From positions 27,143,998-27,207,997 of the forward strand of contig JASXTE010000017.1 of the NCBI GenBank assembly GCA_030280995.1: a DNA stretch of 64,000 bases, written 5' to 3'. The position numbers and the translations under genes were made by a program. The notes below the pieces were generated by a model, which was given only the letters and a program-made list of their open reading frames with translations, did not search any database and was not told the origin of the DNA. Positions 212-41,574 of this stretch are shown here, piece by piece; position 1 is the first letter of the stretch, and the number at the start of each line of letters is the position of its first letter. This DNA is from Hemileia vastatrix (Eukaryota; Basidiomycota; Pucciniomycetes; Pucciniales; Zaghouaniaceae).

Positions 212-251
212 CACCACAGAAAAAATGGGGGGGTATTGCTAGCAATACCCC
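212..251 (+). repeat. Left terminal inverted repeat of giant CACTA element
   Basis: Starts CACCACAG, then an A-run, seven G and a perfect 22-bp palindrome GGGGTATT-GCTAGC-AATACCCC (230-251). Its reverse complement is at 41535-41574. The palindrome probably presents a symmetric transposase binding site; the shorter CACTA elements here have the same TTGCTAGCAA core with different arms. Confidence 0.88.
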
Positions 252-2156
252 TTGCTTGAGCTCCGTTGAGCCACAAATCTATGCTTGAATTATGCACACA
301 TCATCACCATGTAGGAAATTGTTTGGCCTTACATTTAGTCAGAGATTTGTCACAGATTGAGCTCAAGATGAACCTACATTGATCACCGTTTGATCTTGTA
401 AAATCCTAATTTGATCATCAGTTAAGCTCCCTTTGATCTCACTTTGATCTAACATAAGCTTTTGCATATCCAATATGTCAACTATTCACTTTCAAAAAGA
501 TTCATAATGAATTTCACATGGAATATTAGAAACGAAACCAGTAATTTTGAGTAAATGTCTCATCAAAATGATTAATCTACAACAAAATACCATCAAAATT
601 CAATCTGATTACTGAAAACTTTTGTTAAAATGACTAATAGATATTTAAATTGGAAAATAATATTCCATTTCTCAATTTCAAATTCAAAATATAAATCCTC
701 GTTTGAAATGTGAATTTTGTAGATTCCTTGCCTTCCTATATTATGAGTAATATTTGAGGTATTTTACACCTTTGTAAATATGGTGTTGTGCTGCTAGAAA
801 TTATCTCTGTTTCAATTCAACTTTATTGAAGCTTGAGTCCAGAATGATAAATATTTTATAACTATTTTGAGAAAAAAGTCACTAGTAATGAATTTAGCCT
901 TTTATCTGTCCTTTATTAAACCTCACTTAATCCTACTTAAATCCAAATTGACCCACAAAAACCTTATTTGGGATATTTTTTAGCCCAGGATGATTCAAGA
1001 TTGGAGCAAAATATTATTTTAAATATCCAATATGCCTATTAATTAAATTTCTTCAAGCTTACTTTAAATTCACATTAACATTAACTTTCACAGGAAATAT
1101 TAAACACAAATCTTGAAAATATAGTATTTAAAATCATAATAAATATAATATAATATGCTTACAACAAAATTTTCTTTCTGGATTAATTGAAACAAAAAAT
1201 TGTTCATTTGTGAAAATAGAAAAAATACTATCCATCCTGAATTTAGAATTCATTTTTAAAAATTTAATGCCCCCTCACTTTCAAGTTTATCATGTATTTC
1301 GAAAATTATATTTTTAATAATTTTGTGAATAGTACACCTGAGATATAAACTTGGGGATATCAAAAACTAAAACATCAGCAAATTGAAATGTTTTTTATTG
1401 TTATGAATGGAAATAATGATTGAAAAACACCATTAGAGCAAGTTTGATTTTGAATAATAGGCATACTTTCTCATGTAAATTTCAATAAAAATAATTTTTA
1501 TTCTTACTTAAGTTGCGGTGGATACATTTGAGCTCAAAAAGAATTAAAATTGATAAAATAAGACTTCTATAGTTCATATTCAAAAATGAAATCACCCTTC
1601 ATTATCTACCTGTAAACTATTTTAAATTGAATAATTTCAAAGTCAGTATATACTGATGTTATTTTTTCTTCTAAAAAATTTATTATATAGATTAATAGTC
1701 ATAAACAGTTGACATAGATGTTAAATTTATATAAGCAATCTTTAATTCATAAAATGATAAAACTATCTTTTATGTAAAAAGTGATGAAGGAAAAAAATAT
1801 TATTAAATTTTTGATGCACTATCAATAAAATTGAAGATAGAGCATATCAAAAGTTTAAACTTAATTTCAATTTTGATATCATCATTTTATTTTATTTTAC
1901 TTGAGTAGAAAACAGATTTTAAATCTCAATATAATTTTAAATCCCATTAGTTTGTAGATTTCAACATTTGAAACTATGAAATAAATATTTATGAAAGAAT
2001 TTTACAATATTTGCCCTTCTAAAAACTCATAAATCCAACTTCAAATCTTCTAACCTTCACAAGTAACCACAATGCATTCTGAAAATACTCTATATTTAAA
2101 TAATTAAAGGTAAATAAAATTATGTTTTTATTCTTTATTTCAATTTTTGATAAATA

Positions 2157-2187
<31 letters not shown>
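2157..2187. repeat. TA dinucleotide microsatellite
   Basis: An almost uninterrupted run of AT/TA units with one interrupting C, in AT-rich non-coding DNA. Confidence 0.9.
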
Positions 2188-4638: not shown

Positions 4639-5469
4639 CACCACGCAATAAGGGGGGCGGACTTGCTAGCAAGTCCACAACCTTGAACCCTAATTCATAT
4701 CTTTTTGAGCACACATTGAGGAAGTGATGAAACCATCATGAAGAAGTATTGAATTTACTTTGAACACAAATGGGGCTACAAGGGCTGGAAAGGCTGGAGA
4801 GAGGGGTGAGGAAGGGTGTATGGGGTAGCGAAAAGGTTGGGAAAGAGTTGGAAGGGAAGATTAAGGGTTCTGAGGCATTTTAAATGAAGAAAAGGGTCTG
4901 GGAGAGGTTGAGAGGGGTGAAATGGGGATCAAAAGAGGATGGCATAAAATGGGGCTGGGAGGATAGCGAAAGGCATGGGAAGGGAAGACAAGCATGTGTT
5001 GATAGAATTGAAAGGGATGGAGATTGGTGCAAACAGAGTGTGAAAATAGGAGGATGAACTCTGTTCTTCGGGCGAAGAACAGAGTTCACTTCCATAAAAT
5101 ATTAGCTGAAACAAAACAGAGTGTGAAAATAGGAGGATGAACTCTGTTCTTCGGGTGAAGAACAGAGTTCACTTCCATAAAATATTAGCTGAAACATAGT
5201 TTTCAATTCTGTAAAAACAGTTGTAGGTAATAGAAAAAGTCACTGATCTTCAAAAAATACTTTGCATTGAGTAGACTCATGGAATGATTTTTTCTGGCTT
5301 CCATTCAGTTATCCTCACACTTTCACTATGTTTTCAATATAGATCCATTGTTATTTGTGTGATACTTCAAGTGAAAGTTCAGTATTACTTCAGTCTGAGT
5401 TCCATCTGATTTCCATCTGACTTCAAGTTGCGCACTTGCTAGCAAGTCCTCCCCCTATATTGCGTGGTG
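4639..5469. mobile_element. Non-autonomous CACTA element, copy 1 (831 bp)
   Basis: Termini CACCACGCAATA... and ...TATTGCGTGGTG are inverted repeats. Each continues into the palindrome GGACTTGCTAGCAAGTCC or a one-base variant of it. Flanking TAA at 4636-4638 and 5470-5472 is a 3-bp target duplication. No transposase. The interior has an 82-bp tandem duplication (about 5031-5195), each unit containing a 14-bp-stem hairpin GAACTCTGTTCTTC/GAAGAACAGAGTTC, and subterminal words such as CTGAGTTCCATCTGA. It is nearly identical to 16893-17724, so this family moved recently. Confidence 0.9.
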
Positions 5470-8704: not shown

Positions 8705-10617
8705 ATGGAAGAAGATTTTATAGACATGTAAGTTCATGTTTTGCTTATCATTTTTCTATATTTCTTTAATACTTTCTCAACCATTATATTATTAATATGA
8801 AAAGTAAAACATCATCTCGTACTTGCTGAAAGCATACAGGATAATGTTTTGCTTTTCATAATAATAATTAGATTGTTTGTACTTTACCTTTAATTTATTG
8901 ATTTTTAAGTTGTTTCAAAGTCTCGTACTTGCTGAAAGCATACAGGACAATGCTACAATTTAAAAATTAATAATTTATTGAAGTATAACTTTCTAAGTCA
9001 ATATATTGATCAGAGCAAGATTTTTCATTTTATATATGTGGATATCATAATTCCGTAAATTTTTTAATATTACTAGTGTATTGGAGTTATACTTTCATTA
9101 TATTATTAATATTAAGTGTAGAGCCAAATCTCGTACTTGCTGAATGCATACAGGATAAAGCTATACTCTTTATATGTATAATTTAATAAAGTATACCTTT
9201 GAAACGCTTTCTTAATATTTGAAATAAAGAAAAAGTATATAAATTTACTAATATGTAGATATGCTAACTTTTGTATTTCTAATATTGAAGATATGATAAA
9301 GTTAAAGGTATCATTGACTGATAATTGAAATTATGTTACTATTTTCTAATTTTTGATTTTTTTCTATTTTAAATCAAAATTGAATTCTCTTAGGATTGAA
9401 CAATCAATGAGTAACGATTTGAAAAAAAAAAAACGGCCAGGGAAGAACTCTAACAATAGGTGGGCGAAAGACATTGCTACTGGAATGAAACTTGTAAACG
9501 CTCTTGGAATGGATACAAATGGGAAGAAGCCACATTTCTATGCACGATCTTATGCAAATAATATGACAGATTGCAATAATTATTACAATTTTTTTCCTGG
9601 ATGTAGTATTTATAAACCAAAAGGTGTCTTAATACCTAATGTTCTTGTGCAGACTTTTGAAATTCATGAGCTCAAAGAACTAGATATGTTAGAAGCTACG
9701 GTGCGATGCATTAAGGATCTTTCTTACTGCGAACATGAAATTAAAAATAATGGTTATCATCAAAGAGCTGGTGGTTTTGGAAAAATGTTTGGTGGTGGCT
9801 TTATTTTAGATAGAAAGAAATCTTTACATATTCGTAAGTATCACTTTTTTTAATTTAAATACTGAATTTTTGAATGCTTTTCCTTGCAGATGAATACACT
9901 GATGATATTGTAAAAACGGATGAATATAAAAAACGAATGAAGAGGATTGCAATGTACTTTGAATATTTTTTTAAAAAAATATCATATGTAAAGTACAATG
10001 AGGCAACTAATCTTTGCGCAAAACTTGGTATTCCTGGATTTTCAAAAGTTTCTAGTGAAGAAGAGGGTGTACCGTTTGCTAGTAATTTAACTTGGACATC
10101 TGGAGGGAATGGTAATGGGTTCTCTAATGAGGTTCATCTTGATATGGATGCAAGTGAGTATACTTTAGGAATATTTTTTCCTAAAGATACAGAAAAAAAC
10201 ACCATTCATATGAAGTATGATAAGACCCAACCACGACAAATAGGTGGAGAACTTATGTTTCCCGAAATTCGAAGTAAAATCAACTTTGAAGCAACTAATG
10301 GAATAACAGTGACATTATGGCCTGCCAATCAACTAAGGCATTTTACCTCAAGATGTCATGAAATTCCTGGCTTCACTAGGATAGGTTCTTCTATTCAAAT
10401 CAGCACTAGACTTTTTCATGCTATAGAAAAGCTTAATGTTTTTGATATTGATATTTCAGAATACTTAGAAATTAAAAAAGAAAAATTTAGGTTAGAATAT
10501 TTGATTAGTGCTTTGAGAGTTTTTTTGAAAAGAGATGACTTAATAGAGGAAGAAATAGAATCAGCAAAGTATTATTTATCTAATGTTAAGACAAATCTAA
10601 AAAATCTAGATATATAA
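8705..10617 (+). CDS. Tet/JBP-like 2OG-Fe(II) dioxygenase (396 aa, three exons)
   Basis: Exons 8705-8727, 9394-9833 and 9890-10617 join in frame through GTAAGT...TTAG and GTAAGT...GCAG introns to a 396-residue protein. The fold signature of Fe(II)/2-oxoglutarate oxygenases is visible: H237-x-D239 (VHLDMD), a GGELMFPE strand around 273, distal H305 in WPANQLRHFT and R318 in RIGSS for 2-oxoglutarate. The WPANxxxHxT context resembles the fungal Tet-like oxygenases, related to TET/JBP enzymes that oxidise 5-methylcytosine or thymine in DNA; such genes are known to be expanded with DNA transposons in basidiomycetes. The 23-nt first exon is inferred from perfect frame joining; otherwise the start would be ATG 9407. 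The gene looks intact, unlike the transposase. It converges on the 687-aa gene. Substrate is not provable from sequence; an RNA- or protein-directed oxygenase remains possible. Confidence 0.82.
8783..9190 (+). repeat. Three structured repeats in intron 1 of the Tet-like gene
   Basis: A 32-nt word beginning TCTCGTACTTGCTGAA and ending CATACAGGA-AA-G occurs at 8815-8846, 8921-8952 and 9129-9160 with only a few changes. Each copy lies between flanks that can pair with each other (about 20-24 of 26-28 positions), and the pairing flanks differ between copies, so the conserved word would sit at the tip of three different long stems. Each copy also carries a possible branch point (CTGA) and acceptor (CATACAG). 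This suggests a regulatory RNA structure or alternative 3' splice sites. Confidence 0.65.
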
Positions 10618-11416: not shown

Positions 11417-13846
11417 TTAATTTATTGAAAGGCTATGTTTAGCAAAAAAAGGTGATACTGGCTGAATGGAGCTCCAGTGATTAAGAAAATCTGCAGAAAT
11501 AGCCCTAGCAATTCCCGGAGGACTTGGGGTATCAAATTTTAAAGGAAATGGATCACACTTGCCTATAAAAGGTTTTATTAATGTTAAAATATAGTTATTT
11601 AAATTTTTCCAAATTATTTCTTCCATCAAATGATTTTTTTTTTCATGTAAATTAAGAAACTTAACTTCTGATATTACCTCCAAGCAATCAGCTGCTGAAG
11701 CCAATCTATGATCTTGAGAGCTCAGAAATAAACCACGGACACCAACAATTATATAGAATGTGAAAGATTGATATCGGTGGTGGGAGTATTCAGAATTTAT
11801 TTTGTTTAGTGCAGCCTTTTGTTTCTCTCTCATTATAGTCAGTTCAGTATTTTCGTTTTTCTCACTTGATTGTTGAGCTTCACTAGTCTTGCCACTTGAT
11901 ATTTTAGCAGCACAATATTTTGATTTAAGAATGATAATTGACATAATTATATCAATGATAATATTGCTGATTTGAAGAAGAGTTGACATTGATATATCAC
12001 GGGTTTGAAGTGCAGTGGGACCAACTTCTAAGCCATCAGAAATTGGACTCTTCAGATTTGAAAGGTGAGCTAGAAGCTGAAGACCACGTTCAATTGGACA
12101 ATCTGAGTTAATGTTTTGATGTGATGGAAGCTGGCTGAATTCATGTGCGGTCAGATAAAGTGAAGATGATATAAGAGATACCCATGAAGAACGGCAGTGG
12201 TCACTTGGGATCATTAATCTCATGAGCATTCGGATAAGATTGGATTCAGGGTGATCCGTTTTCTTTGTTGAGGAAAGAATTTCAGTATTTAAACCATCAG
12301 GATCACATAAATCTTCCATTTTTTTGAAATCAATATTATCGAGTACCCATAGCTGTGAGCTATCAATCTCTAAAAAAATATTTGCTACAAAAGGAAAAAA
12401 AAAATAAGTAAAAGAACAAAAGTCAAGACTAAAAATTATGGTAACTTACATAACTCAGTAAGTTTTGAAAGCCAATCTTCTCCACAAGATTTTTCCCAAT
12501 GAAAAGTAAACATTGGAATATTTGACATGGGTTCTTGGGAATAAGTAGAAGAGCGTAATTCTAGGAGAGTAACAATTTCCAACCACGACCTGAGGACCTT
12601 TGCCGTGCTGATTCTACCTTTATAAAAATTATGAATTTTACAGAATTCCTCCTGCAAATCAGATTCTTTTAGAACTGAGGGTGAATAAGTTAGAGGTTTT
12701 TTGGATATCTTGATTGGAGTTGATTTCATTGGTAGAGAAGCTTTCAGAATGGTCAAAGTAGGTAATTTAGGAGGTGATGGGTATTGCTTCTTAGAAATGA
12801 AGGAATTTGGTGATGAGCTGTTTGAATCATCATCTTTATCAAACATATCAACATGTCTTGAAGAAGATTTTAAACTTTGCTTTTTTTGATGAACAAGCAT
12901 AGCTTCATATTCTGATAGTTGATCATCGCTATTTTCATTGCTCTTTTCATCATCTTCATCAGGGAGAGGGCGTTTATGGATGGAACAATCTACAGCAGGT
13001 GAGTTTCTGGTACAAAATATCAAAAGAAAGATAAAAAGTACAATATGTAAGCAATAAAAGAGATATATGATTGAATTTTAAAGATAAAAGAATAACAATA
13101 AAAAAAAAGGAAACAAGAATATACTCATTATCAAAACCTTTGCTTTTTTTTGAGATTTATTATTTGATACATCAGAAAATTCATTAGCAGAAGCCGGTTT
13201 AATACGTCGAACAAAAGAGGAGCCTTGGGATAATCTCTTTTTCTTGGAGCGGATAACAGGTGTTTCAAGATTTTCCTTAGAAGTTGAAGCATGAGTTGAA
13301 GCTGATGGTTCATCTGTCTCATCATCATCCCTAATGACAATGACTTCATCAGGAGGAATCATACCCTCCTCATAAGCTACAAATATATATGAAGAAAAAA
13401 AAATATTAATAATCTTATCTACTAATTTAAAAGGAGACAAAAAAGGTGATGAACATACATTTTTCAAGGCTTTTCACATATTGGAGTAATTCATTACAAG
13501 GGTTAGATAAATATGAAGGAGAAGGATTATTGTTAAGGATCTTGACAAGCTCTTCTGTTTTATCTCTAGCCAATTCAAGTAAATTGCAATACTGAACTCT
13601 TGTTATTTCCTGCCTCTCATTGCTAAGTACAGGAGGGTTAGGTGCCATGCCATGTGGCAGACATGGTGCAAGCTCAAAAGCTTCAAAGCGAGTATCAATC
13701 AGAGAGTGGGATGAAACACATTTGGGTGCTGGAAAATCAAATTTTTGAAAAAAAAAGATATAGAACATAAGTGAAATATATAAATTAAGAGAGAGGAACA
13801 TGATATACATACAAAGTGGAGGTGTAGGATTTTGTATACTAGACAT
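11417..13846 (-). CDS. Unknown 687-aa protein, five exons
   Basis: Five exons on the minus strand, 13846-13813, 13728-13459, 13376-13125, 12989-12450 and 12384-11417, join in frame with GT...AG introns of 65-135 bases to 687 residues. I do not recognise the family. The N-terminal third has short helical segments. The middle is low-complexity and charged, with acidic runs (IRDDDETDE, DEDDEKSNEN), serines and basic patches such as SKKKRLS that could act as nuclear localisation signals. The C-terminal half from about residue 330 is more regular and mostly helical, with tryptophans and a hydrophobic stretch (IIIDIIMSIIILK) that looks like a buried helix. No catalytic signature. Its intactness and position between the Tet-like gene and the transposase suggest a nuclear accessory function for the element; that is inference. 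Confidence 0.72.
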
Positions 13847-24330: not shown

Positions 24331-24339
24331 TGAATAACC

Positions 24340-25180: not shown

Positions 25181-25199
25181 CCCATTGGTATTGAGTTCT

Positions 25200-25560: not shown

Positions 25561-25569
25561 TTTAAAAGA

Positions 25570-26040: not shown

Positions 26041-26219
26041 TTAAGAAGGTTCCCCTGTGAACACTTCTTCCAATAAATTTTAAAAAGTTTTCCAACACTA
26101 TCTTCACCCATATTTTAAGAATTTTAAGTTTTTGAAAATTTCAAAGATGGTCTTCTTGAATTTCGTTAAGTTTCATCATAGTTTCGTTGCCCATAGGAAG
26201 TGTAACGATAGTAAAGTAT

Positions 26220-27720: not shown

Positions 27721-27726
27721 TAAACG

Positions 27727-30669
27727 TCAACCAGATAGGTAAAACGTAGATGACTTCCTCTTGATAGCCACCCATTCATTGTCTTCACAATCTTCTGGCC
27801 TCTCTAAAGTCAACAAATATTTGACTAACAAAAAATAAAAACCAGTCTGACCCCAGACTTCATCTTGAAAATCGATTAATATAACATCAATAGGGACTTC
27901 TCTATCACCAATATCACCTGCACATGAATGAGCCAATAATCGTTGACCCCTAAATAAATCTTTAATCGAGCTATGTCGACGTTTTTCTTCTGAACCTTTG
28001 GATCCTTCGAAAACCGTATTCAAAAATACCTCTTTCTCTTTATCCACCTTTTTATTTAAATTCTCTAATTCTCCAACATATACACCATTCCTTAACTTAC
28101 TACTATCCCACACTACCAATCCATCTTCCTCTACATACACCACATCTTCTTCTACCTCCTCTCTGCCGAATTTATCTACACCTTTTCCAACACCTTTATT
28201 AACATAAAAACTATTTTCCAGTTTAACCTCTTGGTGGAGGTCATCATCACCATAATCTAAACACAATATTCCTGCCAGTTTAACCTCATGGGGGAGGTAT
28301 GGAAAGTCTTCAGCTCCTTTAGTGCTGGCTTTGATAATAGGTATATCTTCATCGAACTCTTCTGAGTCTGAATCTTCTTCAGTGGGTGGTCTCCTTGATA
28401 AACCATCTGGCATAGTAAAAGTTTTGCCAGGCTTATGAACTAAATCGAACGAAAAATGTTGAATAAAAGCTACCCATCTCGTCATGGGTGCGTTCGGTAA
28501 ACTTGGGGAATTAATCATCTGGATTAACGATTTCGCATCCACTTGCAACTCAAAATGTTGCCCCCACAAAATATGCTGAAGTTTCTTCAGTATTTTAGCC
28601 ACACCACATAATTCCAATTTCGGTTGAGAATATCTTGATTCGACCTCAGTAAATACTACAGATTCATACCTAACTGGCCTGATGTAACCAGCTTTATCCA
28701 TCTGAGACAAAACCGCCCCAGCTGCAATCTGACTTGAATCAACTGCTAAATAAATTCTGCCAGCATCTTTTCCATAATCCAACTTGTGCAGGACTAAATC
28801 CTTCCCCACAACCTCCTTCAACTTCACAAACGCCTTCTCACACTCTTCATCCCACTCCCAGTCTGCATCCTTTCTCGTTAACCATCTCAATGGAGCTGCC
28901 AATGAAGAAAAGTCCTTGATAAACATTCTAACATATACGCAAACGCCTAAAAACCCTCTGACTTCGGTTGTATTCTTGGGTCTTGGCCAGGACTGAATTT
29001 TGTTAACTTTCTTCTTGGACATAATCCTACCCTCTCTACATACCACATGGCCTAATATTTCTAAGGCTGGCACACAACATGAAAATTTTGAACCTGAAAT
29101 AGTTAAACCAGCCTCTTCAATTCGAAACAAGATTCTTTCTAATGTAATTGCAAATTCCCAAATGAATTTGCGTATCCCGGGATTCTCTTCCAACACCTGG
29201 TTATCATAGTCGGTTGTTGGTCCCTTAATTCCTCCATCATCTATAAAGATTCCAGCATATTGTGGAATTTCATCTTGAAGGATCCAAGCCATCTGAGCTT
29301 GATAAACTGCAACCGAATTTGTTGCTCCTTGAGGTAATCTTGTTAACTGTAAGCGTCCAAGTGGCGTATCGAATGTAGTGAGAGGTCTTGAGTCCGGATG
29401 TAACTCTCTCTCATCATATCCACCCATAATATCTCCCAAACCATAGCACACTCTCCCTGCAAACGCTTCAACGAACTCCTCAGCACTAGGTGGTATCCCA
29501 GCATCCTTTATTGTAACCCTATTTAATTCCCTAAGATCATGAACAACTCTAAGCTTGCCATTCGGTTTCTTGATACAAAATACAGGACTTGAATAACTTG
29601 ACGTTGATTGCTCATACAGTCCAGTGCGTATCCGTTCTCTGACAACTTCAATATAGGCTTCTTTTAATGCAGCCGGAATAGGAATCGGTTTCTGCTGCCA
29701 CGGTTCATGACATACCACAGGAATCTTGTAAGGCTCCCCATAGGAATGCTTCAACACACCCCTCTCCTCTTCTACAAAAGCAATGGCCTTCTCTCGCTTG
29801 ACCATCACATCCAACAACAACTTCTTCTCTTCTCCAGACAACCAACCATCAGGTCCAAAATTAACAACACCCAGTCTCTCAAAAGTGATTCTTGACGTCT
29901 CAGAAAATTCAGGCGGATTCTTTACCAAGGGACTTTCATAAGGATCTCTTGATAACCTTGGTCTTCTCAAGGGTGGATTTAATTCAGCAGGTAGCGGTTC
30001 ATTAATAGGTCGAACTTTATTTGCTACTTTCTTATATTTGGCTGTGTCCACATCTAAATAAACTTGAGGTAAAACATTGCCATTAAAACTTTCATCAAAT
30101 GAATCTTCTTCATCGTCAGAATCAGAATAAGAAAAATTAGAAAAATATTTTATTTCATTTTTAAATTTTACCCTTTTCTCCTTTCCCTCGTCTAATTTAT
30201 AAACAGATTTTCCAACACCTTTGCTTCCCTTATCCAACAGTAAATCACCCGTAAAGAATGTCGGCAGTTTAACCTCTTGCTGGAGGACCGGAATAGCATT
30301 TTCACAAAAATTATTTTTTTGTGTTTTAATTATACTGAGATTTTTTATTGAGTTTTGATGAGTTAATTGCAGTTTACCCTCTTGCTGGAGGTCATAAAAC
30401 ATACCCTTCCAATTTTTATCCAACCTAATTTGACCCATGTTGCCTTTTTCACCATTTTTAAATTTAATAGAAAAACCGGGTAAATCCAATAAACATATAG
30501 AAAAGTCCAAAACGTATTTGCACTCCAAAGTAATATTAACAGAAAATAATTGAGAATCCACTTGAATTATCTCCAAGTGAGCTGACCTATTGCAATCCGG
30601 GATCTCATCCTGAGGAGAGATTACAACATTAGAGCGATCAGCCCCTGCTACCCCAAAAAATGAGGGCAT
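27727..30669 (-). CDS. Reverse transcriptase and RNase H of element A
   Basis: 980 codons. After about 330 residues of linker, with an acidic stretch (DSDDEEDSFDE), comes the RT: KPNGKLRVVHDLRELNR, GLGDIMGGYDE, TPLGRLQLTRLPQGATNSV and the catalytic GIFIDDGG. Tether and RNase H follow: IYLAVDSS, LELCGVAKIL, QVDAKSLIQMI and HKPGKTFTMPDGLSRRP. A further region continues to the TGA before integrase. Four short peptide repeats of the type LxxEVKL (encoded at 28219-28240, 28276-28297, 30265-30286 and 30370-30391) are the coding form of the element's hairpin motif. The frame begins at ATG 30669, overlapping the preceding frame; expression probably needs frameshifting or reinitiation. Confidence 0.9.
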   Translation of the reverse strand: MPSFFGVAGADRSNVVISPQDEIPDCNRSAHLEIIQVDSQLFSVNITLECKYVLDFSICLLDLPGFSIKFKNGEKGNMGQIRLDKNWKGMFYDLQQEGKLQLTHQNSIKNLSIIKTQKNNFCENAIPVLQQEVKLPTFFTGDLLLDKGSKGVGKSVYKLDEGKEKRVKFKNEIKYFSNFSYSDSDDEEDSFDESFNGNVLPQVYLDVDTAKYKKVANKVRPINEPLPAELNPPLRRPRLSRDPYESPLVKNPPEFSETSRITFERLGVVNFGPDGWLSGEEKKLLLDVMVKREKAIAFVEEERGVLKHSYGEPYKIPVVCHEPWQQKPIPIPAALKEAYIEVVRERIRTGLYEQSTSSYSSPVFCIKKPNGKLRVVHDLRELNRVTIKDAGIPPSAEEFVEAFAGRVCYGLGDIMGGYDERELHPDSRPLTTFDTPLGRLQLTRLPQGATNSVAVYQAQMAWILQDEIPQYAGIFIDDGGIKGPTTDYDNQVLEENPGIRKFIWEFAITLERILFRIEEAGLTISGSKFSCCVPALEILGHVVCREGRIMSKKKVNKIQSWPRPKNTTEVRGFLGVCVYVRMFIKDFSSLAAPLRWLTRKDADWEWDEECEKAFVKLKEVVGKDLVLHKLDYGKDAGRIYLAVDSSQIAAGAVLSQMDKAGYIRPVRYESVVFTEVESRYSQPKLELCGVAKILKKLQHILWGQHFELQVDAKSLIQMINSPSLPNAPMTRWVAFIQHFSFDLVHKPGKTFTMPDGLSRRPPTEEDSDSEEFDEDIPIIKASTKGAEDFPYLPHEVKLAGILCLDYGDDDLHQEVKLENSFYVNKGVGKGVDKFGREEVEEDVVYVEEDGLVVWDSSKLRNGVYVGELENLNKKVDKEKEVFLNTVFEGSKGSEEKRRHSSIKDLFRGQRLLAHSCAGDIGDREVPIDVILIDFQDEVWGQTGFYFLLVKYLLTLERPEDCEDNEWVAIKRKSSTFYLSG

Positions 30670-31001
30670 TCATCCCTTTCCAACAAACATAATTCACCAG
30701 AAGCCGTCCGTTTTATATGCCGCTTCTTGGTGCAAACACAACACTGGCACAGAGTAGTAATCCCTGGCCGTGTTTCCCAACCTTCATCTCCAGGAGGCGC
30801 TAACCGCATATGTAACCTCCGCATATCTTCACCAGTGATCTCCAAACTAATCCCCATGCCAGCTTGATACCCTATCCTGGCCTCAAAATCCATCAAAAAA
30901 GGACCACCAAGAACAGTTTTGACTGCTCCTCTGGCCACATAAAAGTGAACCTTACCAACAGATCCACCAATGCCTAACCTGACATGCTCAGCAGTACCCA
31001 T
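30648..31001 (-). CDS. C-terminal part of element A protease region
   Basis: 117 codons opening with an ATG that overlaps the stop of the preceding frame (TGATG). It contains VHFYVARGAVKTVLGGPFLMDF, the usual C-terminal half of a retroviral-type aspartic protease (the LGxxFL strand). A second block follows with cysteines (CQCCVCTKKRH). The protease is thus split at 31001 between two frames. Either programmed coupling or an old 1-base change could explain this; no second intact copy is available here for comparison. Confidence 0.75.
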   Translation of the reverse strand: MGTAEHVRLGIGGSVGKVHFYVARGAVKTVLGGPFLMDFEARIGYQAGMGISLEITGEDMRRLHMRLAPPGDEGWETRPGITTLCQCCVCTKKRHIKRTASGELCLLERDECPHFLG

Positions 31002-31939
31002 CAGCTCTGTTGCATGCCCTCCAATACCTCTGAGGTTTCCCCAGTTCCACTTTTAATTGGCAAGCCTATACTCGTCGCTTGCTCCAATGAAATTAAATTA
31101 ATTTGAGACCCTGAATCGACCAAGGCCTTTACTTCTTTACCATTAAGAGTTACCACCAGGTAACCCAGGGGAGCGGAAAAATGTGTATCTACATCTTCCC
31201 CAAACTTTTCAACATTTTCACAAATATATTCCACCTCTCCAGTGGAAACCCGACGCCTCGTCAAATGCTTCTTTTTCTTTTCAGCAAGCGCCGGACTAAT
31301 CGTAAATAACTCCCCTAAAGATAAGGGAATCTGAAGTTGATTCACCCTATTCAAAACTGCGTCCATCGCATTAGCTTGACCGGAAACTACTGGCCGCTCA
31401 TACTGGACCTTTGATTTAACAACCTTGGCCCTGGGTACCTCTTGAGGTCCAACCGAGCCATCTTCACCCCCCATTATAACATCTTCACTTTCTATAACCC
31501 TAACTCTGTCACCAGCTTCTTGCACTAATCCTGATCCATCGCTAGTCCTTCTTACTCCCTCCATTGGGATGGGACCGCTAAAACTTGGTCTGGGTAGAGA
31601 CGCCAACGGTACGTCCTCCTCAGAATCCGAATCATCCTCTGGCATAGGCTCACCATTTAAATCAAACTTGCCATAACTAGGGGGCCCCATATCAGCAATC
31701 CCCTTCTGCATTTTATATAATTTGTCCTTAGAGTAAGGGTTCAATTTGTTGGCGGCAGTTTGAGCACTAGAATTCTTGTCCTTAGAGTAAGGGTTCACTT
31801 TGTTATTGGCCTTGCCAGGATTAGCCCTCAATTGGCTCTGAATGCTACTTTTCGCCTTAGTAGCAGCTGCTCTTCTAGCAGCATTAACATCGTATTCGCC
31901 AGCCATACAGCTTCCCTCCACCTGGGCAACCGTCGCCAG
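31001..31939 (-). CDS. Linker and protease N-terminal part of element A
   Basis: Open frame directly continuing gag after its UAG (31942-31940), in the same frame, as in readthrough arrangements. Low-complexity linker with a repeated NPYSKDK unit (twice), then a negatively charged region. Near the end is the protease active site VDSGSQINLIS. The frame stops at 31001 in the TGATG overlap with the next frame. First ATG in frame is 31906 (MAGEYDV). Confidence 0.78.
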   Translation of the reverse strand: MATVAQVEGSCMAGEYDVNAARRAAATKAKSSIQSQLRANPGKANNKVNPYSKDKNSSAQTAANKLNPYSKDKLYKMQKGIADMGPPSYGKFDLNGEPMPEDDSDSEEDVPLASLPRPSFSGPIPMEGVRRTSDGSGLVQEAGDRVRVIESEDVIMGGEDGSVGPQEVPRAKVVKSKVQYERPVVSGQANAMDAVLNRVNQLQIPLSLGELFTISPALAEKKKKHLTRRRVSTGEVEYICENVEKFGEDVDTHFSAPLGYLVVTLNGKEVKALVDSGSQINLISLEQATSIGLPIKSGTGETSEVLEGMQQS

Positions 31940-33256
31940 CTATAAACCACCAAAAGAAGTAGAAAATGTGGCTTTACTGACCTCTTTCTCCTTGCCCTTG
32001 TTAGCTTTACCACCATTACCATTACCATTTTTGCCACTCTTGGCATTAACATCTTCATCCATCACCTCTTCAAATCTGGCTCTCCTTTCAGCCGTTAAAC
32101 TTCTTCTGACCAAATCAGAAGGAGACTGTCCATCACTGGGCTTGATGAACAAACCATCGGGAAATTTATAAACTTTACCATCGAATAAAACTCGCCCAGC
32201 ATCCATATCCTTATCAAGAGCAAAACAAACTGTTTCTCTGTGACCCCTCCTATTACAATAGGAGCACACCTTTGGCTCATCATAGCCACCTCTATATCCA
32301 TTACTACCATTCCCACCATTTCTCCCATTGCCTGGAAAGCGGTTACCGTTGTTATTGCCATTATAATTTCGACGTTCATAACCTCTAGACTGATAAGAAG
32401 TCGACGTCGACGAAGAAGCGATTGGGGCCTTATTGGCCTTCTGGGTTTCTTGAACAAATATTTTTAATTGTTTAGTTAAATCGGCCAGGTGATCGACCAT
32501 CTTATTATCTACATTACCCTCAACTTTAGCAGCAGGTAATCCCATTTGAGCCTTCTTGGCCTCCTGGGCTTTGACCATAATATTGTTGTTTTCGGCCAAA
32601 ACCTTGCTAACCTTGCTAACATATTGAGTGCAAGACTCTTGATATTTGTCCAACGCCAATAACTTGAGATGGGCCTGAATGTTCTCTTTGATAACCTCCA
32701 GAGCCGGCAGTTTCTGCTCACCATTAGGCAGTTCCTTCATCAAATCTTTTCTTGAAAGATCCTTCAAGACGTCCATATGAATATCCCTGCTGCATGCTGA
32801 CCAAAACAAATCTTTTGCTTGGTTCTCATGCACTAACTCGTCCACCAGTATGAGATATTCCACCACTTCATCAAACTGAACACAGAGCTTTTTGAAGTCA
32901 GCCATAGAAGAAACACCACCTTTTGCTTGCCAGTCTCCAACAATTTTATTGAGGTCCATCATAGTAAACCTAACACCCCATCTATCAATCATAGCTTTAG
33001 AAAGCTTAACCCAATCCTTGTCCTTGAATGCCTGCATAGCAATAACCTCTTTTTCCACCTCCCTATCAGCAATAAAAAACCTAACTTGCTTCACCATATC
33101 CACATGAGAAGCACCATCAACAGCAGCAGCAGCTTCATACCTGCTAATGAACCATTTAACCTCCTCTCCATCAAACTTTGGGCCATCCCAAGAAACAATT
33201 CTAACTGAGGGAGTAAGAGGGTTAGAAGATCCAGAAGCAAAAGCAGAAGAAGACAT
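31940..33256 (-). CDS. gag: Gag of element A
   Basis: 438 residues. The N-terminal capsid-like region is helical (VKWFISRYEAAAAV, DRWGVRFTMMDLNKIVGDWQ). A Gly/Asn-rich stretch (NGNNNGNRFPGNGRNG) leads to one CCHC zinc knuckle (CSYCNRRGHRETVC) for RNA binding. Its start ATG lies about 180 bases downstream of the 5' LTR. It ends with UAG followed by in-frame open sequence. Confidence 0.9.
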   Translation of the reverse strand: MSSSAFASGSSNPLTPSVRIVSWDGPKFDGEEVKWFISRYEAAAAVDGASHVDMVKQVRFFIADREVEKEVIAMQAFKDKDWVKLSKAMIDRWGVRFTMMDLNKIVGDWQAKGGVSSMADFKKLCVQFDEVVEYLILVDELVHENQAKDLFWSACSRDIHMDVLKDLSRKDLMKELPNGEQKLPALEVIKENIQAHLKLLALDKYQESCTQYVSKVSKVLAENNNIMVKAQEAKKAQMGLPAAKVEGNVDNKMVDHLADLTKQLKIFVQETQKANKAPIASSSTSTSYQSRGYERRNYNGNNNGNRFPGNGRNGGNGSNGYRGGYDEPKVCSYCNRRGHRETVCFALDKDMDAGRVLFDGKVYKFPDGLFIKPSDGQSPSDLVRRSLTAERRARFEEVMDEDVNAKSGKNGNGNGGKANKGKEKEVSKATFSTSFGGL

Positions 33257-33410
33257 CCCAATAAGTAATGAAAAGCGTTAAAATTCGATAAAATAACAAG
33301 CCTCTTGCAGGCCAATAACAAAAATCCAATTAGAGTTCCAGAAAATATGCCTCTTGCAGGCTAATAACGTTCTTGATCCAAGTAAGTCTTTAAAGAAAGC
33401 TAGAGAAATC

Positions 33411-33432
33411 GAACCCCACATTGGGCGCCAAC
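33411..33432 (-). promoter_or_regulatory. Primer binding site region of element A
   Basis: On the element strand GTTGGCGCCCAATGTGGGG follows the 5' LTR immediately. The TTGGCGCCCA-tGTGGGG form is typical of fungal LTR-element primer sites; the exact tRNA is not identifiable by eye. Confidence 0.65.
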
Positions 33433-34536
33433 TATGGTAAGGTAAACTCTTACAGTCGCCTTGCTGTAAGCAGAATCCGGAGGAGATATGTGGATTTAGC
33501 TGAAAACCCCGTCCTTCCAATAAAAATAACAAAGTAGGTGTTCTAAATCACTAAGCTAACCAATCTACTTAGATCTGATTGATAAAAAATAATGAAACTC
33601 TAAAATAATTAACGCTTATTGAGATTTGAATAAAAGTGGCTGTTGATAAAAGAAATACTGATAACAACAATTAAGGTGTACCAGTGAAAGATCTGAAAAG
33701 ATTGACTTTTATGTTTTTATAATAATTTGAATTTTTATGAGACAGCAATAATCAAGTCCCAGCGACGAAGACCTTTCTAAAGATACCCTGTATGAAGTGT
33801 TATTTAAACTGTTGAATTGTATTTCTAAGATGTTATGTAAAAATAATAATGTTATAAGGGTATTACAAGTTATTTTAATTTGTTGAGTAATAAAAAATGA
33901 GTCTGTGGTGGTTAAAGATTAAGCTGTATGATGTGTTTCCCCTTCTCAATTTCGAGTTTGAGAAGCGCTTAAGTATTCCTAGTCACGTGCCTAAGTTTTC
34001 CCCTCCAGAGCTCTTCCAGAGTCAATCCGGAGCCCGTACGGAGTCCGTACGGAGTCCCTCCGGACTTCCGGACTCAATTTAGAACCTTAAAACTATAATA
34101 AAAAAATCTAGAAAAATTACACATAATAGAGCTACTTCCCCTTTACATACCAAACTAATTTTCGTAGTCTGCGCAGCTCTAATTACCCCGTGAAAATTCA
34201 TCAAAGTTAAGTAATTTTTGAAAACGTAAATATTTCTATAAAACTTTAAAATTCATTTAAAAATATAAGAAAAATAGTAAAAATTCTGGGAAAATTTCCC
34301 AAGGTTCTTGAGTGACTCGACTTAATACTTATAAATTTTTTTAGACCGTAAAAATAAGTTTTCTCCGTAAAATAAATTGTTTTCGTGTAGGCATTCGCTC
34401 GTGACCAATTTCTTCATATTTAAAACTCCAATAAATTAAATAAAACCCTTTTATAAAAAATAATAACGCCAATCTTGCACGCCGTAATAACTCCATTTAC
34501 ATATTTAGGTGCCGTACTAAACTTTAGGCTACCACA
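33433..34536 (-). repeat. 5' LTR of element A
   Basis: 1,104 bp, the same length as the 3' LTR at 21828-22931 and over 99% identical by eye. Presumably contains the promoter driving gag-pol leftward. Confidence 0.92.
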
Positions 34537-36070
34537 ACGCCAATATTCAAGGTTATTCAGCTCACTCCATTGTACCCCATGATTTTGAACAATTGATACA
34601 CGCTCCCAATGTGACTTAGAATTTTTCCACTTTGTTGCCCAGCACATATGATCCTCATGATTCCGTAATGAAAAATTTCCCACATTCTTTTCACTAATTT
34701 CATCTTTAGAGATATTACAGAAAGAGCAGAACATTTTTGCAGAGTGACTCGAAAAGCCAGCCAATTTTCGTATTGCAGGAATGTCACCTATCAAAGAGAA
34801 CAATGCAACTCTTAATTTCCGGCCTCGTGGATAAAGATGTGTCTTTTCAATCAATATACCATCCCATAGAGTTTGTAGATCATTAACCAGTGGTTTTAGA
34901 AGGTGATTAAGCTGTTCACTTGTGGGTTCTGTTGGTCCGGGTATAATAGAATACAAAAAAAGATTTTCCATTTTGTATCTATCTTCTTGAGGTAGGTTCA
35001 TACACACCATCATAATATTGCCTACAGACTTCTGATGACCTCCAATCCTATTGCCACCAGGCCTAAACCAGTCGACATATAAAGTAAACATTAAGTTGCC
35101 TGAAGTTATCGTATATTCATCATCATTGCTATCCAGAGCTGGAGTGGTTATGGGAAAGTTTTTCCAAATTGAACCATCACAAACATCCTTCATCAAATCA
35201 CACTCTACACGTTCTGCCACAGGGGTTTTCTTCTCAATCAGAAGCTCAAATTTGAACAGTTTGATCTTTTCCTTAAGCCAGTCGATAAAAGAATGGTGAT
35301 GAAATGTTTTAAGAGATAAGTATTTTACATGTTCTTGATGTTCCTCCATCAAATACAGCCTTTCATCACATTTAACTGCAATTTGTCCTGCTCCAAACAT
35401 TTTTAAATAGCGCTTTGATGATGAAAGAAACGGTTGATTGCAACATAGTATAGATGGTTGAGATTCAGAGTTATACTCATAAAGAGCAAAGCATTTAGGA
35501 CAGCATGTTTTAGTGAAAAATGATTGATTGAGCTTTAATCGACTAAAAACTGTATCTATCGAGCGTGGGACCAGGCGGACAATGCTATCAGAATCCAGTA
35601 TTCCACTATCACCTAGAAGTTTGAGCTTCTTAATTTCTTTATCCAAAAATTGAGTACAACCTTCTTTGCTCAAATGATGAATCAGAGAAAGCTTTGCTGC
35701 CTGCCACATAATTATTTGGCTATACCGTTCCCCAAGATTTGAGTTTCTAGAGACTGTTGAAGATACTTCTGCCCCCAATAGCAACTGCCCCTATGTAATA
35801 AATCATTGAAACATCATAAAGACTTTAATTCTCACATTGAACTATAGATATACAGCTTACTGTTTCTGTGGAGCGGGAACTTCCAATGTTAAGTGGATTG
35901 TTGGAAGAAATAACCATCTGGGCCTTCCTATTTCTTTCCTCTTGATGTTTTGCATAAGAATTAGAGCTTTTGAAAGCCATACCAACTTCAAAGGACCCAG
36001 AAGAAGTTTGATACTTTCTATTGACACATCCAAGATCTTGACATTGACATACATGAAAAAATAGAGGCAT
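34537..36070 (-). pseudogene. tnp2: Tnp2 transposase, N-terminal half
   Basis: Exon 1 is 36070-35861 and exon 2 starts at 35790 (GTAAGC...ATAG intron, phase 0); exon 2 is cut by element A at 34537. Exon 1 has a zinc-like CxCxxxxC start (CQCQDLGC). Exon 2 shows the Tnp2 domain: CCPKCFALY, the catalytic-region LYVDWFRPGGN, NLPQEDRYKMENLFLYSIIPGP, PTSEQLNHLLKPLVNDL, IGDIPAIRKLAGF and HSAKMFCSFC. The last codons (EYWR) continue after the insertion at 21823. It reads divergently from the 350-aa gene at 37146. No stop or frameshift in this half, so the gene was probably functional until recent hits. Confidence 0.9.
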
Positions 36071-37145: not shown

Positions 37146-38267
37146 ATGAACCCTAGTAGCTCTTACTTTCCTCATGGAAACTTGCCCACAAACACAAGAA
37201 CACTTAATAGAATTTTTAATGAGACTTTGCCTCCATTCAATTCTCACTTTTGTAGATCTATACACAATTTTTGTCGTTCACTTTTGGATATGTCACCAGA
37301 ATCAAATGGATGGAAACAAAACCCTACTGAAGAGCAATTAGACATATTTTCATCATTTGACATGAATTCTTGCAACATTGCCTTTGAACTACCTCATCCA
37401 GAATCAAATTCAGCGGTTTCAGAAAAGTTTCCACCAATTTTCCGTGAATCTTTTATTGAGCACCTTCGCATGTGTGGTTTCCCAGGATCAACTTTCGCTT
37501 GGAACCTAGATTGGTTTGACAAATGGAACCAGGTCTTGGCAAATATTCTCATTAAACACTGGGACAATGCCTTAAAAACCAATAATTTGATTGCATATCC
37601 AATTGACTCAACTCAAATTAGCTTCTCAAATCAAATAGGAGTTCTTCACCGTTGGTTTTTAGGTCATGCTGATAGATTAATACTTGGGAAGGATTCTCAT
37701 AGCTCTCAAGAAATAATCAAAGTGAGAAAGCATAAATATAGAATAAAAAAAAAAGTATGAAAATCCCTTTTTTTTCAACCGTTTTTATTTATGACCTTTA
37801 TTTCAAATAACAAAGATTCTTAGAATTCAGTTAACCGAACTAAACTTCTTAAAGAACTTCCACATTGTGAAACTTATCACAACCTTTTCACAAACATCAA
37901 ATGTTGTTCAGACACCGAAATTGATAATGATGGATCGTTAAGACGTATCTTAATGCAATGGAGGTCTGAAGATTTTTCTAAAGTTGCACAATATCTTGAC
38001 CAACAACACTTTGATATTCGAGATAATTCAACCTACTCTGGCAGTGTGCTAAAGGACTTGGCCTTGTACAAAAGAATCAGTTTGGTTTCAACATTATCCC
38101 CTAACCTTAATCCTTCTCATGTCCCCCGGGGTTTGCCGAATGACTGTTATTCTCCCTTATATCTTGCATCTCTAAATCCTCAACAACTCAGACTTTTAAA
38201 TCCTCAAAATCCCATAAATTTACCTGCTCTCCTTGAAATTCTTTCTTCCTCTAATGTGAGTGATTGA
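37146..38267 (+). CDS. Unknown 350-aa protein, two exons
   Basis: Exons 37146-37754 and 37824-38267 join in phase 0 through a 69-bp GTATGA...TTAG intron to 350 residues. Not recognised. The first exon has tryptophan-rich segments (FAWNLDWFDKWNQVLANIL, LHRWFLGHADRLIL) and ends in a very basic stretch (KVRKHKYRIKKK) that could be a nuclear localisation or DNA-contact region. The second exon has LLKELPHCETYHNLF and a Leu/Asn/Pro-rich end (NPQQLRLLNPQNPINLPALLEIL). Intact, divergent from Tnp2, and ending 132 bases from the convergent SNF2 gene. Position suggests a CACTA accessory (DNA-binding) protein; this is inference. Confidence 0.7.
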
Positions 38268-38399: not shown

Positions 38400-40625
38400 T
38401 TACATTGTTAGCTCCATTTTTTTCCTTTGAATCTTATACATGCTGAATTCTATACTTCCTTGTACAAAATAATTCAAAACATTTACTTCATTTTGCTGCC
38501 CCATTCTATACAGCTGATCAACAGCCTGTTGCTCAACTGCTGGATTCCAATTTGGCTCCTATTTCAACATTGAACATATAAAAAATTTAATATTTTTGTT
38601 CTTAATATGAAATAAAAGACATTGAGCTCACCATTATATATACATTTTGAGCACACCTGAGATCTATACCCACTCCTGCAGCCTGAATTGTTCCAACCAA
38701 AACTTGGCAATTTTTATTAAAATGGAATTCATGCATATTTTTGTCTCGCTTTGTCCGGCTGAGTTCACCCGTAAGCTGGGTATACCTAATATTGTGGTCA
38801 TCTAAAGCCATTTTTATTCTATTTTGAAATATTAGAAAATTGTTTTTAATAAGCCAACACAATTTTGTAAAAAAATTCATTATAGAATCACTTACATCTG
38901 CAAAAAGTCTGCAAAGTTGGAGAATATAACAGCTTTTGGAAAATTTATATCCCTTTCACCAGACAAAAAGTTTTTTAAGTGGCCTATAAGATGACAAATC
39001 TTTGCGGAATGCTGCCAGGTGAAATCAAAAGTTGGAGTTTCATCCAGATTTTCGTAGATTGGATGGTTGCAGAATTTTCTTAAAATCATCAGCTCTCTTA
39101 GAAACTCAGATGAGTCCCAAGGGAAGTCAGTGCTTCTGGAGGACCCATATCGCTCAGTTAATCCTTCTTGAAGCACATCAAGTTTAGACCTCCATGGATC
39201 TGCTAATTGAACCGATATCCCCCTTTGAATCTTTTTTGGAAGAGACAAAATTGCATCCTTTGCTCTACGTAGGCTTATGACTTTCATTAAGTGATTGATT
39301 GATTTAATAGAATTAGCCTTTCCTTTTTGCAAACCTGGAAAAAGGAAATTCTTCCATAACCAGTCTTCTTGCCACTTTTCGATTCTAAGAAAAAATATGA
39401 GACTTTGAAGGTCAGTGGGCCTGTTCTGAAGTGGAGTTCCAGTCAAGCATAGTCGGTGTTGGGATTCCAAGTCAAATATTGTTTGAGCCCTCTGCGAGTA
39501 AGGATTTTTAATGTAACTAAAAGAATATTTATAAAAATTGATAATAATAATTAAGTTTTAAGTTTTAGATATAGAAATGGGCACTAACTGAGCTTCATCT
39601 AAAACAACTCTATACCAAAAGAGCATTTGAGTCACCGGTATCTTTTTTTGGCTTTGATTTTTTGACATCGTTGGGCTAGCTATTTCATAGGTCGTTAAAA
39701 CAATAGCAGTGTCCTGTAGCTCATTGACATTAGTATTTTGACAATCCTTCCCATAAAGAACCTTGAAAGGAAGTGCATTATCTTCAAAGTGCACACTTAT
39801 TTCATTGATCCAATTCAATAGTGTTGCCAGGGGGCATATAATCAGTGTGGCTGAACTCCGATTAATACCTTCTTGATTTTCTGATACCTGGAATTGTCTT
39901 GCTTCACCTTGAGTTGCACTTATAAGAGAAAGAGTTGAAAGTGTCTTTCCCAAACCCATATCATCAGCAAGTATTGACCCGTTTCCTTCAGGCGGCAATT
40001 GATTGTTAGGAAACTGATCTTTATAGTCATCGAATCCAGTTCTAAGCCAATGGTTGTCCTGGTGCCTCCACATGATATCCAACTTTTCCTTTAACATTCG
40101 TTCATTGTCAATCATAAAATTTATTGCTTGAAGTTGATGTGTTTTGAGAACTGTTTTGATTCCTCGGATAAGTTGATCAGCATTCCAATCTTGAGTACTC
40201 TGAGATATTTGGAAAGAGCCTTCAAAAATTACATGCGGGATATTAAAAAAGATAGTGGAGTCGTAGTTCAGGATTGGACATAAATCAATTTGTGCAGAAG
40301 AAAATGCTTCTTTAGCAAGACTGATTAGTGTACTTGAAGAAAAGAGGCATCCCCAAAGTTGATACTGATTACCAAAAACTGGAACCAAGTAAGCATGAAA
40401 ATAGAAAGGCTTCATAGGATTCAAGGCACTTCTTTGGTTTAAATGGTGAGATCCAGAGCCAATGTCACCCAATAGTGGTCCAATGTGCTGACTCTGCACT
40501 TGAGAAAGATTACCAACAAGGGTTGGTTTTCTTTCTTCAAATAGTCCAAAAATATGAACATTTGAATGGCCTCGCTGTAAAATCGTGGGGGTTGGTGAGT
40601 TTTGAAATCTTGAAATTACATTCAT
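38400..40625 (-). CDS. SNF2-family DNA-dependent ATPase (658 aa, four exons)
   Basis: Exons 40625-39589, 39489-38896, 38818-38632 and 38558-38400 join in frame to 658 residues. Helicase motifs in order: Q-like KTHQLQAINFM (about 161), I ADDMGLGKT (about 220), Ia TLIICPLATLLNW, II DEAQ spanning the first splice junction, III CLTGTPLQNR, IV KAVIFSNFADFLQ, V VGTIQAAGVGIDL and VI DQLYRMGQ. This is a compact Rad5/HLTF-like SNF2 core without an added RING finger or reader domain. Motif II is DEAQ instead of the common DEAH/DEGH; the first acceptor is chosen because only it keeps frame. It would move or strip proteins on DNA or chromatin using ATP. Intact; nearest gene to the right end of the transposon. 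Kinetoplastid JBP2 joins a Tet-type oxygenase to an SNF2 domain, so co-carriage with the Tet-like gene is notable. Confidence 0.87.
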
Positions 40626-41534
40626 ATAAATTTGATCGATTGTTATTGAGAACTGTCAAACACATCTGAGACTTGACATATTAAGTAAGAATAGTATCTG
40701 AAGATAGTGGTTGTTAAAAGATGAATTGAAGCAAAAAATGAAGAATCAGTTTTGAATAAAACGACAAAATAACTTTTTAGCATATGCTATGCTAAGCTCA
40801 TAATTCTTTCACATGTATTATTATTATCTTTTTAATAAATATTGGAAGTAAATCAATGATAACTGAAATGAATAATATGTCTTAAAAATAAATCTTGAGC
40901 CTATAGAGTAAATTTTGGTTTGTGGAGGAAGAAAAATTTTCTCAATAAAAATGTGCATTATTGTTACATTATAATCACAAAATAGAATAATTTCACTCTT
41001 ATTACACTTATTTATGTTTCTGTCTAATAGTAAAATGCTTTAGATGTCAGTTCAAAATCCAAATTGAAACTACTACCTAGAACGATATCTTGATACTAAC
41101 ATACTTTTTGTAAGTCTTTGGAAAGACACTTATGGTGATCTCAATAATATTAAAATTGATTTGAATTGTATGTTTTATCAAATATCTATGTAGTCTAGTG
41201 TAATAATTGAGATACTACAGTTTAACCTTCTGTTACCAACTTGGCAAGAAAATATATGTAGATATTCTTAGAACGAATATCAAATTTTGCTTTCCACAAG
41301 ATGGGAAAGTGAATATTATGATATGTTAAGTGATATGTTCAAGCTTTGCTCAATCTGTGCTCAGCTCAAAATCAAAGTAATCACCAAGCTCCAAGAAACC
41401 TGTGATTGAGTTTGGTTGAACCTAGGTCTAACTGATTACCAAATCTTTGTCCAATTAATTTAAATCTGGTTTCACAATGAACTCCCAACAGCCTTCCAAC
41501 AGCTTTCCAACCACTTCCCAACATTTTTAAATGA
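40626..41534. other. Right subterminal region of giant element
   Basis: No gene. Up to the right TIR the last 200 bases hold repeated AAGCTC / TCAATC / TTTGATT-like words (reverse of the left-end TTTGATC words) and an imperfect direct repeat CAACAGCCTTCC/CAACAGCTTTCC at about 41486-41512, as expected for CACTA subterminal sites. Confidence 0.6.
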
Positions 41535-41574
41535 GGGGTATTGCTAGCAATACCCCCCCAAATTTTCTGTGGTG
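41535..41574 (-). repeat. Right terminal inverted repeat of giant CACTA element
   Basis: Reverse complement of 212-251 at 38 of 40 positions, ending TCTGTGGTG and followed by the TAT duplication. Contains the same 22-bp palindrome (41535-41556). Confidence 0.88.

Follow-up and report, generated by a model that had tools for sequence, protein, structure and literature searches.

Fungal TET genes were reportedly covered by a PNAS study in 2014, and fungal transposons that bear such genes have been known for about a decade; to our knowledge, the benefit of the enzyme to these transposons has never been tested. The closest described systems are found in rusts. TET-bearing EnSpm elements with 3 bp target-site duplications (TSDs) and CAC..GTG termini are described from Puccinia striiformis in the main text of Kojima 2025 (PMC12730594), which also places relatives in other rusts. 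Here, we describe an element in a 64 kb stretch of the genome of the rust Hemileia vastatrix (64,000 nucleotides; GenBank assembly GCA_030280995.1, contig JASXTE010000017.1, positions 27,143,998 to 27,207,997), hereafter the window. At positions 212–41574, the window holds one copy of a CACTA/EnSpm DNA transposon that carries a gene for a TET/JBP-like dioxygenase and another for an SNF2-family ATPase. On balance, we favour the interpretation that these two genes form an anti-silencing pair in an autonomous 27 kb family, a function that we infer.

With the TET-bearing EnSpm elements of rusts, as characterized in the main text of PMC12730594, the H. vastatrix element shares an EnSpm-type transposase, 5'-CAC..GTG-3' termini, 3 bp TSDs and a TET/JBP gene (PU-group context). 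That text mentions SNF2 0 times, whereas the H. vastatrix element has an SNF2 gene as well as genes for P697 and the homologues P350 and ORF2, is 27 kb long and has terminal cores by the thousand within a single genome. This comparison is with the main text, and the element may overlap with one of the published families. No published transposon with both TET and SNF2 was found in the open-licence PMC literature, a scope that most subscription papers lie outside. TET-bearing EnSpm elements of rusts have already been published, and it is the combination of TET with SNF2 that is apparently new within the literature searched.

The VANDAL elements of Arabidopsis, in the partial accounts to hand, are likewise DNA transposons with an anti-silencing factor of their own, a role that for the H. 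vastatrix genes is putative. That factor, VANC, is a protein of sequence-specific action that is not known to include an oxygenase or an ATPase. JBP2 of kinetoplastids, like our element, pairs a TET/JBP oxygenase with an SWI2/SNF2 ATPase, which in JBP2 act together on chromatin; for our element the pairing is one of genes. However, JBP2 is a single host protein acting on thymine, while the H. vastatrix element has two separate transposon genes. Mutations of SNF2 residues abolish base-J synthesis by JBP2, according to the excerpted text of PMC10057400.

Termini, copies and insertion sites

The ends of the window element and its immediate flanks are as follows.

209..211, no strand: left copy of the TSD (TAT), read from the sequence
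212..251, plus strand: left terminal inverted repeat (TIR) CACCACAG..., with palindromic core GGGGTATTGCTAGCAATACCCC, a core found at 2,879 genome sites
41535..41574, minus strand: right TIR, from TIR comparison
41575..41577, no strand: right copy of the TSD (TAT), read from the sequence

An original prediction, made from the letters of the window, had described matching 40 bp inverted termini with TAT on either side and two halves of one Ty3-B tail outside them, and each of these features was recovered. The two 40 bp TIRs are identical at 38/40 positions. When the flanks were joined with one TAT, they were collinear with an unbroken retroelement downstream, at 49589–50237 (541/664 bp, 81% identity) and 50333–50924 (502/593 bp, 85% identity). 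The alignment runs through the junction, around which approximately 75 bp are AT-rich, divergent and poorly conserved. A Pfam scan found the Transposase_21 domain (PF02992, E=6.9e-16) of a Tnp2-type transposase, as in CACTA/EnSpm elements. The CAC...GTG termini CACCACAG...CTGTGGTG are present in the window copy and in five of the six further copies described below (E1–E5), with a single change in the sixth (E6).

When the genome (747.6 Mb in 791 contigs) was searched for the core GGGGTATTGCTAGCAATACCCC, allowing up to two mismatches, the 2,879 sites were returned, against 0 for the reversed pattern. Positions were taken for the first 50 distinct sites, all of them within the first 19.4 Mb of contig C2, and 11 of the 49 gaps between neighbouring cores in this stretch measure 26–29 kb. 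By rough extrapolation the genome contains approximately 630 near-full-length copies, which would make up 2.3% of the assembly (about 17 Mb); the estimate is rough as core density is 2.6 sites/Mb in the C2 stretch and 3.9 sites/Mb genome-wide.

Six terminus pairs approximately 27 kb apart were selected as E1–E6. All are full-length (26,892–27,162 bp), with the same layout and genes as the window element, to which they are 94.9–99.7% identical in every block longer than 1 kb. Their TSDs are, in order, TTT, AAT, TTT, TGT, TTT and AAT. Further terminal loci of approximately 3 kb all matched the ends of E2 over about 1.5 kb (15/15, at 95–99.8% identity). They include five new pairs besides E1, with TSDs AAT, ACT, TTT, AAG and AAT, a differing G-run length being allowed for in two of the five. 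Thus, a 3 bp TSD is found in 12/12 copies (the window copy, E1–E6 and the five further pairs). Among 294 candidates for the joined 91 nt flank of E2, with one AAT, 40 places were scored, and the flank was unbroken at all 40; at 21 of these every one of the 91 nt matches. We conclude that E2 inserted into one member of a repeat and that the other members are empty. These empty sites are paralogous ones within the same genome. Segmental duplication instead of transposition was ruled out by the TSDs and the unbroken sites. In E2, only a weak 6-mer enrichment was seen where subterminal repeats typical of CACTA elements were sought.

The further copies, the recurring genes and the unbroken sites strongly support the transposon reading: the window element is one copy of an autonomous 27 kb CACTA/EnSpm family, enlarged by nested insertions. 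The element proper is approximately 27 kb, and about 14 kb of the window copy consists of nested insertions. The very high similarity among copies indicates that the family expanded recently.

Genes of the element

The genes were located in the window copy as listed.

9407..10617, plus strand (exons 9407–9833 and 9890–10617): TET/JBP-like 2-oxoglutarate-Fe(II) dioxygenase gene, 384 amino acids (aa), PF20515
38249..40679, minus strand: SNF2-family ATPase gene, five exons, 711 aa in open copies, PF00176 and PF00271, from an 11-copy comparison
34537..35790, minus strand: upstream piece of Tnp2, with the Transposase_21 domain (PF02992, E=6.9e-16)
19982..21826, minus strand: downstream piece of Tnp2, with one further in-frame stop, from frame reading and comparison with E2
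11417..13846, minus strand: P697 gene, five exons, 693 aa in E2, out of frame in the window relative to E2
17872..19602, minus strand: ORF2, multi-exon, P350 homologue, fragmented in the window and with longer open exons in E2
37146..38267, plus strand: P350 gene, two exons, ORF2 homologue by BLASTP

The domains called in the original prediction (Tet/JBP-like, SNF2 and Tnp2) were all borne out by the Pfam scan. Its intact window frames were confirmed for TET. They were not for SNF2, which has a stop at codon 8, nor for the 687 aa gene (P697), which is out of frame relative to E2.

The Tet-like 2-oxoglutarate-Fe(II) domain PF20515 was found at E=1.6e-22 (81 bits; cut-off 27). An in-frame Met 27 at position 9485 is an alternative, equally likely start in the gene model. 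At codon 6, the length of an A run differs by 1–3 bases among copies, so that probably either Met 27 is the true start or the run reflects a weakness of the assembly. Read from Met 27, the frame is stop-free in seven of 10 copies (E2, E4, E6, the window copy and L035–L037, the last three chosen as best TET matches) and broken in E1, E3 and E5; the stop in E2, at codon 19, lies before Met 27. When TET exon 2 was used to query the genome, the best 150 of 8,394 candidates were 98–100% identical to it and 147 of these 150 had no stop. The family as a whole has a lower share of open frames, as these are the best-scoring matches. On C2, each of the seven matches listed below 19.4 Mb has a terminal core on either side, and five more C2 matches lie beyond the stretch of listed cores. 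Candidates for the HxD, distal H and R of the active site were picked by eye as H225, D227, H293 and R306; the single-sequence structure prediction for exon 2 (predicted local distance difference test score, pLDDT, 36) is too poor to place them. Matching by sequence to the PDB gave nothing significant (best E=0.46), and no TET homologue at E<=1e-3 was found among 1,978 scored candidates in a search that relies on shared 5-mers.

The window SNF2 protein contains SNF2-rel_dom (PF00176, E=1.9e-57) and Helicase_C (PF00271, E=1.2e-15), with the ATPase motifs GKT and DEAH and the helicase C motif present. In the window, the frame used elsewhere is stopped at codon 8, and an internal Met that follows at 40625 gives a 693 aa model; the same stop is found in copy L040. 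The gene is present in 11/11 copies, namely the window copy, E1–E6 and four copies on C2 (L038–L041) that were read at the predicted place and are 99.2–99.96% identical to E2. Neither stops nor gaps interrupt the gene in E1, E2, E6, L038 and L039, scored relative to E2 with insertions against E2 left out.

Linkage of the two genes was tested by reading predicted positions 15.4 kb from TET matches. At such blind positions on six other contigs SNF2 was found in five of six, and two of the five match E2 without a difference across 721 bp. Thus, the genes between the termini recur, as the original prediction implied. The sixth position, L042 (G000:C103:8412841-8413561), was without SNF2, and this copy may have an insert or lack the gene. 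TET and SNF2 in E2 are approximately 14 kb apart on opposite strands and not fused.

By sequence, the closest solved structure to SNF2 is yeast Rad5 (E=2.8e-46). As no Pfam match to RING or HIRAN was found in the window protein at E<=1, we refer to it as a Rad5-like ATPase and not as a Rad5 orthologue. Among 120 listed homologues, the 19 that rank highest all come from Puccinia, with identities no higher than 44%. In a 46-row tree (quick method, midpoint root), the window SNF2 clusters among 12 Puccinia proteins, of the rust-specific, RING-less kind exemplified by P. triticina PTTG_29311, and this group is split from 33 other SNF2 proteins with 99% support in the Shimodaira–Hasegawa-like approximate likelihood ratio test (SH-aLRT). 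A 693 aa P. triticina homologue is 44% identical over 97% of the length and has the same motifs. Numerous Puccinia homologues lie on short contigs, which fits repeats without proving it.

Open frames in E2 comprise 781 codons for Tnp2, 711 aa for SNF2, 693 aa for P697 and 350 aa for P350. The three further proteins of the original prediction correspond to P697, P350 and ORF2, and the last two are homologous to each other (BLASTP E=1e-12). No P697 homologue at E<=1e-3 was found among 7,990 scored candidates, again with reliance on shared 5-mers, and the single-sequence structure prediction for the last P697 exon had a pLDDT of 35.

Constraint on the genes

Five genes were compared among seven copies, or six in the case of Tnp2. 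Each departure from the majority letter was classed by mutation type, including CpG context, and nonsynonymous counts were compared with the expectation for each mutation type, with binomial P values that treat sites as independent. For the pooled genes, singleton differences comprised 109 synonymous and 343 nonsynonymous or stop changes against 345.8 expected (w 0.97, P=0.39). Differences common to at least two copies comprised 28 synonymous and 27 nonsynonymous changes against 40.4 expected (w 0.35, P=1e-4). By gene, the shared synonymous and nonsynonymous differences were 9/3 for SNF2 (P=0.003), 6/4 for P350 (P=0.013), 6/8 for P697 (P=0.11) and 4/6 for TET (P=0.25) in seven copies, and 3/6 for Tnp2 (P=0.42) in six. 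With 11 copies of SNF2, the shared differences were 13/10 against 15.6 nonsynonymous expected (P=0.014).

The pattern is what would be expected if the genes matter while a copy is active and then decay freely. Constraint on shared variants is established for the pooled genes and suggested for SNF2, and TET alone is without significance. The dN/dS comparison of each gene proposed in the original prediction bore out constraint for the pooled shared variants, but not for TET alone.

CpG decay and the palindrome array

In two CpG-bearing blocks, CpG transitions per site were 3.5- to approximately 130-fold those at other C/G sites in 7/7 copies, and many of them occur at TCG. The left 4.4 kb of the element has only 6 CpG, and four copies have no CpG transitions there. 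The ratio of observed to expected CpG rises from the old Ty3-B flank (0.17) through the element genes (0.3–0.55) and the nested retrotransposon (0.62) to the young Ty3 element at 55.5–64 kb (0.82). In Puccinia graminis and Austropuccinia psidii, young transposons carry CpG methylation, as far as the excerpts of PMC8444563 and PMC12774611 go. From the CpG-mutation scar together with this published methylation in rusts, a modified-cytosine substrate for TET probably exists on the element.

The neighbouring retroelements at 41578–54141 and 55500–64000 are those with ratios of 0.17 and 0.82, respectively, and this contrast may offer an age clock of CpG-directed mutation for the genome.

Upstream of P697, the element contains an array of palindromes.

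14876..16823, no strand: array of imperfect palindromes around ATTAATTTCGATCGAAATTAAT, upstream of P697, in 7/7 full-length copies read

The array holds 18 copies of the palindrome, or 21 at up to four mismatches in the seven-copy alignment. Exact TTTCGATCGAAA occurs 8 and 9 times in the closely related E2 and E4, respectively, 6 times in the window copy, 3 times each in E1, E3 and E6, and once in E5, the most diverged. TCG, which outside the array is the most depleted context, is dense within it. A shielding of the palindromes from CpG decay was ruled out, as their CpGs decay as elsewhere (0.02–0.42 per site). As a guess, the array might be a methylation-sensitive binding site for a protein of the element.

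Nested insertions

Three insertions lie inside the window element, two of them miniature inverted-repeat transposable elements (MITEs) and one a long terminal repeat (LTR) retrotransposon.

4639..5469, no strand: nested MITE of a sister TIR family, TSD TAA, missing at the same place in E1–E6
16893..17724, no strand: second nested MITE, TSD ACA, from sequence comparison including E1–E6
21828..34536, minus strand: nested LTR retrotransposon with Ty3-type pol and 1.1 kb LTRs, TSD ACGC, splitting Tnp2

The MITEs are approximately 830 bp each, with a related core CTTGCTAGCAAG and 3 bp TSDs. The LTRs of the retrotransposon are 1,105 bp with 7 differences (99.4% identical), and its TSD is 4 bp. All three are missing from E1–E6; the window copy reaches 41 kb because they inserted inside it, and with them removed it is approximately 27 kb. 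The retrotransposon splits the Tnp2 gene, whose downstream piece has the further in-frame stop, in agreement with the broken Tnp2 of the original prediction. In the site listing for the copy at C2:3043633-3072170, sister cores occur at two offsets that almost coincide with those of the window MITEs, suggesting that a 28.5 kb subfamily with internal MITEs has probably transposed as a unit.

The sister TIR core GGACTTGCTAGCAAGTCC, allowing up to one mismatch, was found at 22,236 genome sites (reversed control, 0). Many of these are paired approximately 200 or 800 bp apart, as MITEs, and some are 24.7–27.2 kb apart. Two stretches read near a pair of sister termini 27.2 kb apart on C2 contained no SNF2 and no match to E2. 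In the window, a Ty3 element with a chromodomain at 57506–61483 has its pol frame broken near 59441–59701 by a small element with sister TIRs.

Proposed function of TET and SNF2

As an anti-silencing pair, the two proteins would work in sequence. The SNF2 ATPase would shift the nucleosomes of the element or remove them altogether, and this opening would let the TET dioxygenase oxidize methylated CpG. Oxidation of 5-methylcytosine would weaken methylation-based silencing, so that the transposase gene would stay transcribed. The labour would be split as in kinetoplastid JBP2, but over two genes. P350 and ORF2 may be DNA-binding accessory proteins, and P697 a recruiting or regulatory partner. The original prediction had proposed such a kit for demodification and remodelling. 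The CpG scar and the pooled constraint agree with it.

Several observations weigh against this interpretation. Every copy decays at CpG after insertion, and old copies are not protected. SNF2 is open in just five of 11 copies. Without CpG sites, the SNF2 signal falls to 4/4 against 5.7 nonsynonymous expected (P=0.18). For TET alone, the shared differences in 10 copies (5/9 against 10.1 nonsynonymous expected, P=0.35) are not significant; as Tnp2, which is necessarily needed, was also non-significant, the test has little power for individual genes. Finally, E1–E6 were picked by terminal spacing, and shorter or rearranged copies are therefore under-represented among them.

The broken SNF2 frames in about half of the copies and the non-significant result for TET alone are also what captured passengers of no help to the element might show. 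However, the layout is identical in all six full-length copies read, shared variants are constrained in the pooled genes and in SNF2, and the 693 aa P. triticina homologue (44% identity over 97% of length) retains the same motifs, and we regard mere passengers as very improbable. A division of tasks deserves more weight, though we think it unlikely: SNF2 would serve transposition itself, by exposing a nucleosomal target or through a Rad5-like role at replication forks or in excision-gap repair, and TET would act separately on silencing. Yeast Rad5 as the nearest solved structure (E=2.8e-46) fits such a role, and helicase-bearing DNA transposons exist (AcademH, in the partial sources seen), but the window protein lacks RING and HIRAN matches by Pfam. 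Between these two in probability, and in our view rather improbable, is that TET writes a lasting base as a label or protection for the element, either 5-hydroxymethylcytosine or a pyrimidine modified further, with SNF2 spreading the mark. Relatives that write bases are described in the main text of PMC12730594, where JBP leads to base J and CMD1 to 5-glyceryl-methylcytosine. Against this, no glycosyltransferase-like gene was found by Pfam among the scanned exons, a weak argument given that P697, P350 and ORF2 have no assigned function. We retain the anti-silencing pair as the favoured reading.

Significance

A more far-reaching proposal is tentative, and we would not yet rely on it. TET and its dedicated SNF2 could be a transposon-borne, two-gene JBP2 that moves jointly and drives mass amplification, with the CpG palindromes as the methylation-sensitive target of the module and the abundance of SNF2 in rusts being largely such cargo. 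In the available part of a wheat-rust comparison (PMC5295586), SNF2 domains are 2.56-fold over-represented, and transposon cargo is a possible reason. The alpha-kinase domain is over-represented alongside SNF2 in the domain table of the same source. As alpha-kinase has been described as a cargo of TET-bearing IS3EU transposons (main text of PMC12730594), both expansions in wheat rusts may be transposon cargo.

The family described here is large and young, and has an ATPase beside the TET enzyme. As open and broken copies of the genes are found together in one chromosome-scale genome, methylation and transcription can be compared copy by copy, which opens the anti-silencing idea to a direct test. 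Should the abundant SNF2 genes of other rusts also prove to be cargo, an unexplained expansion of a gene family would be explained.

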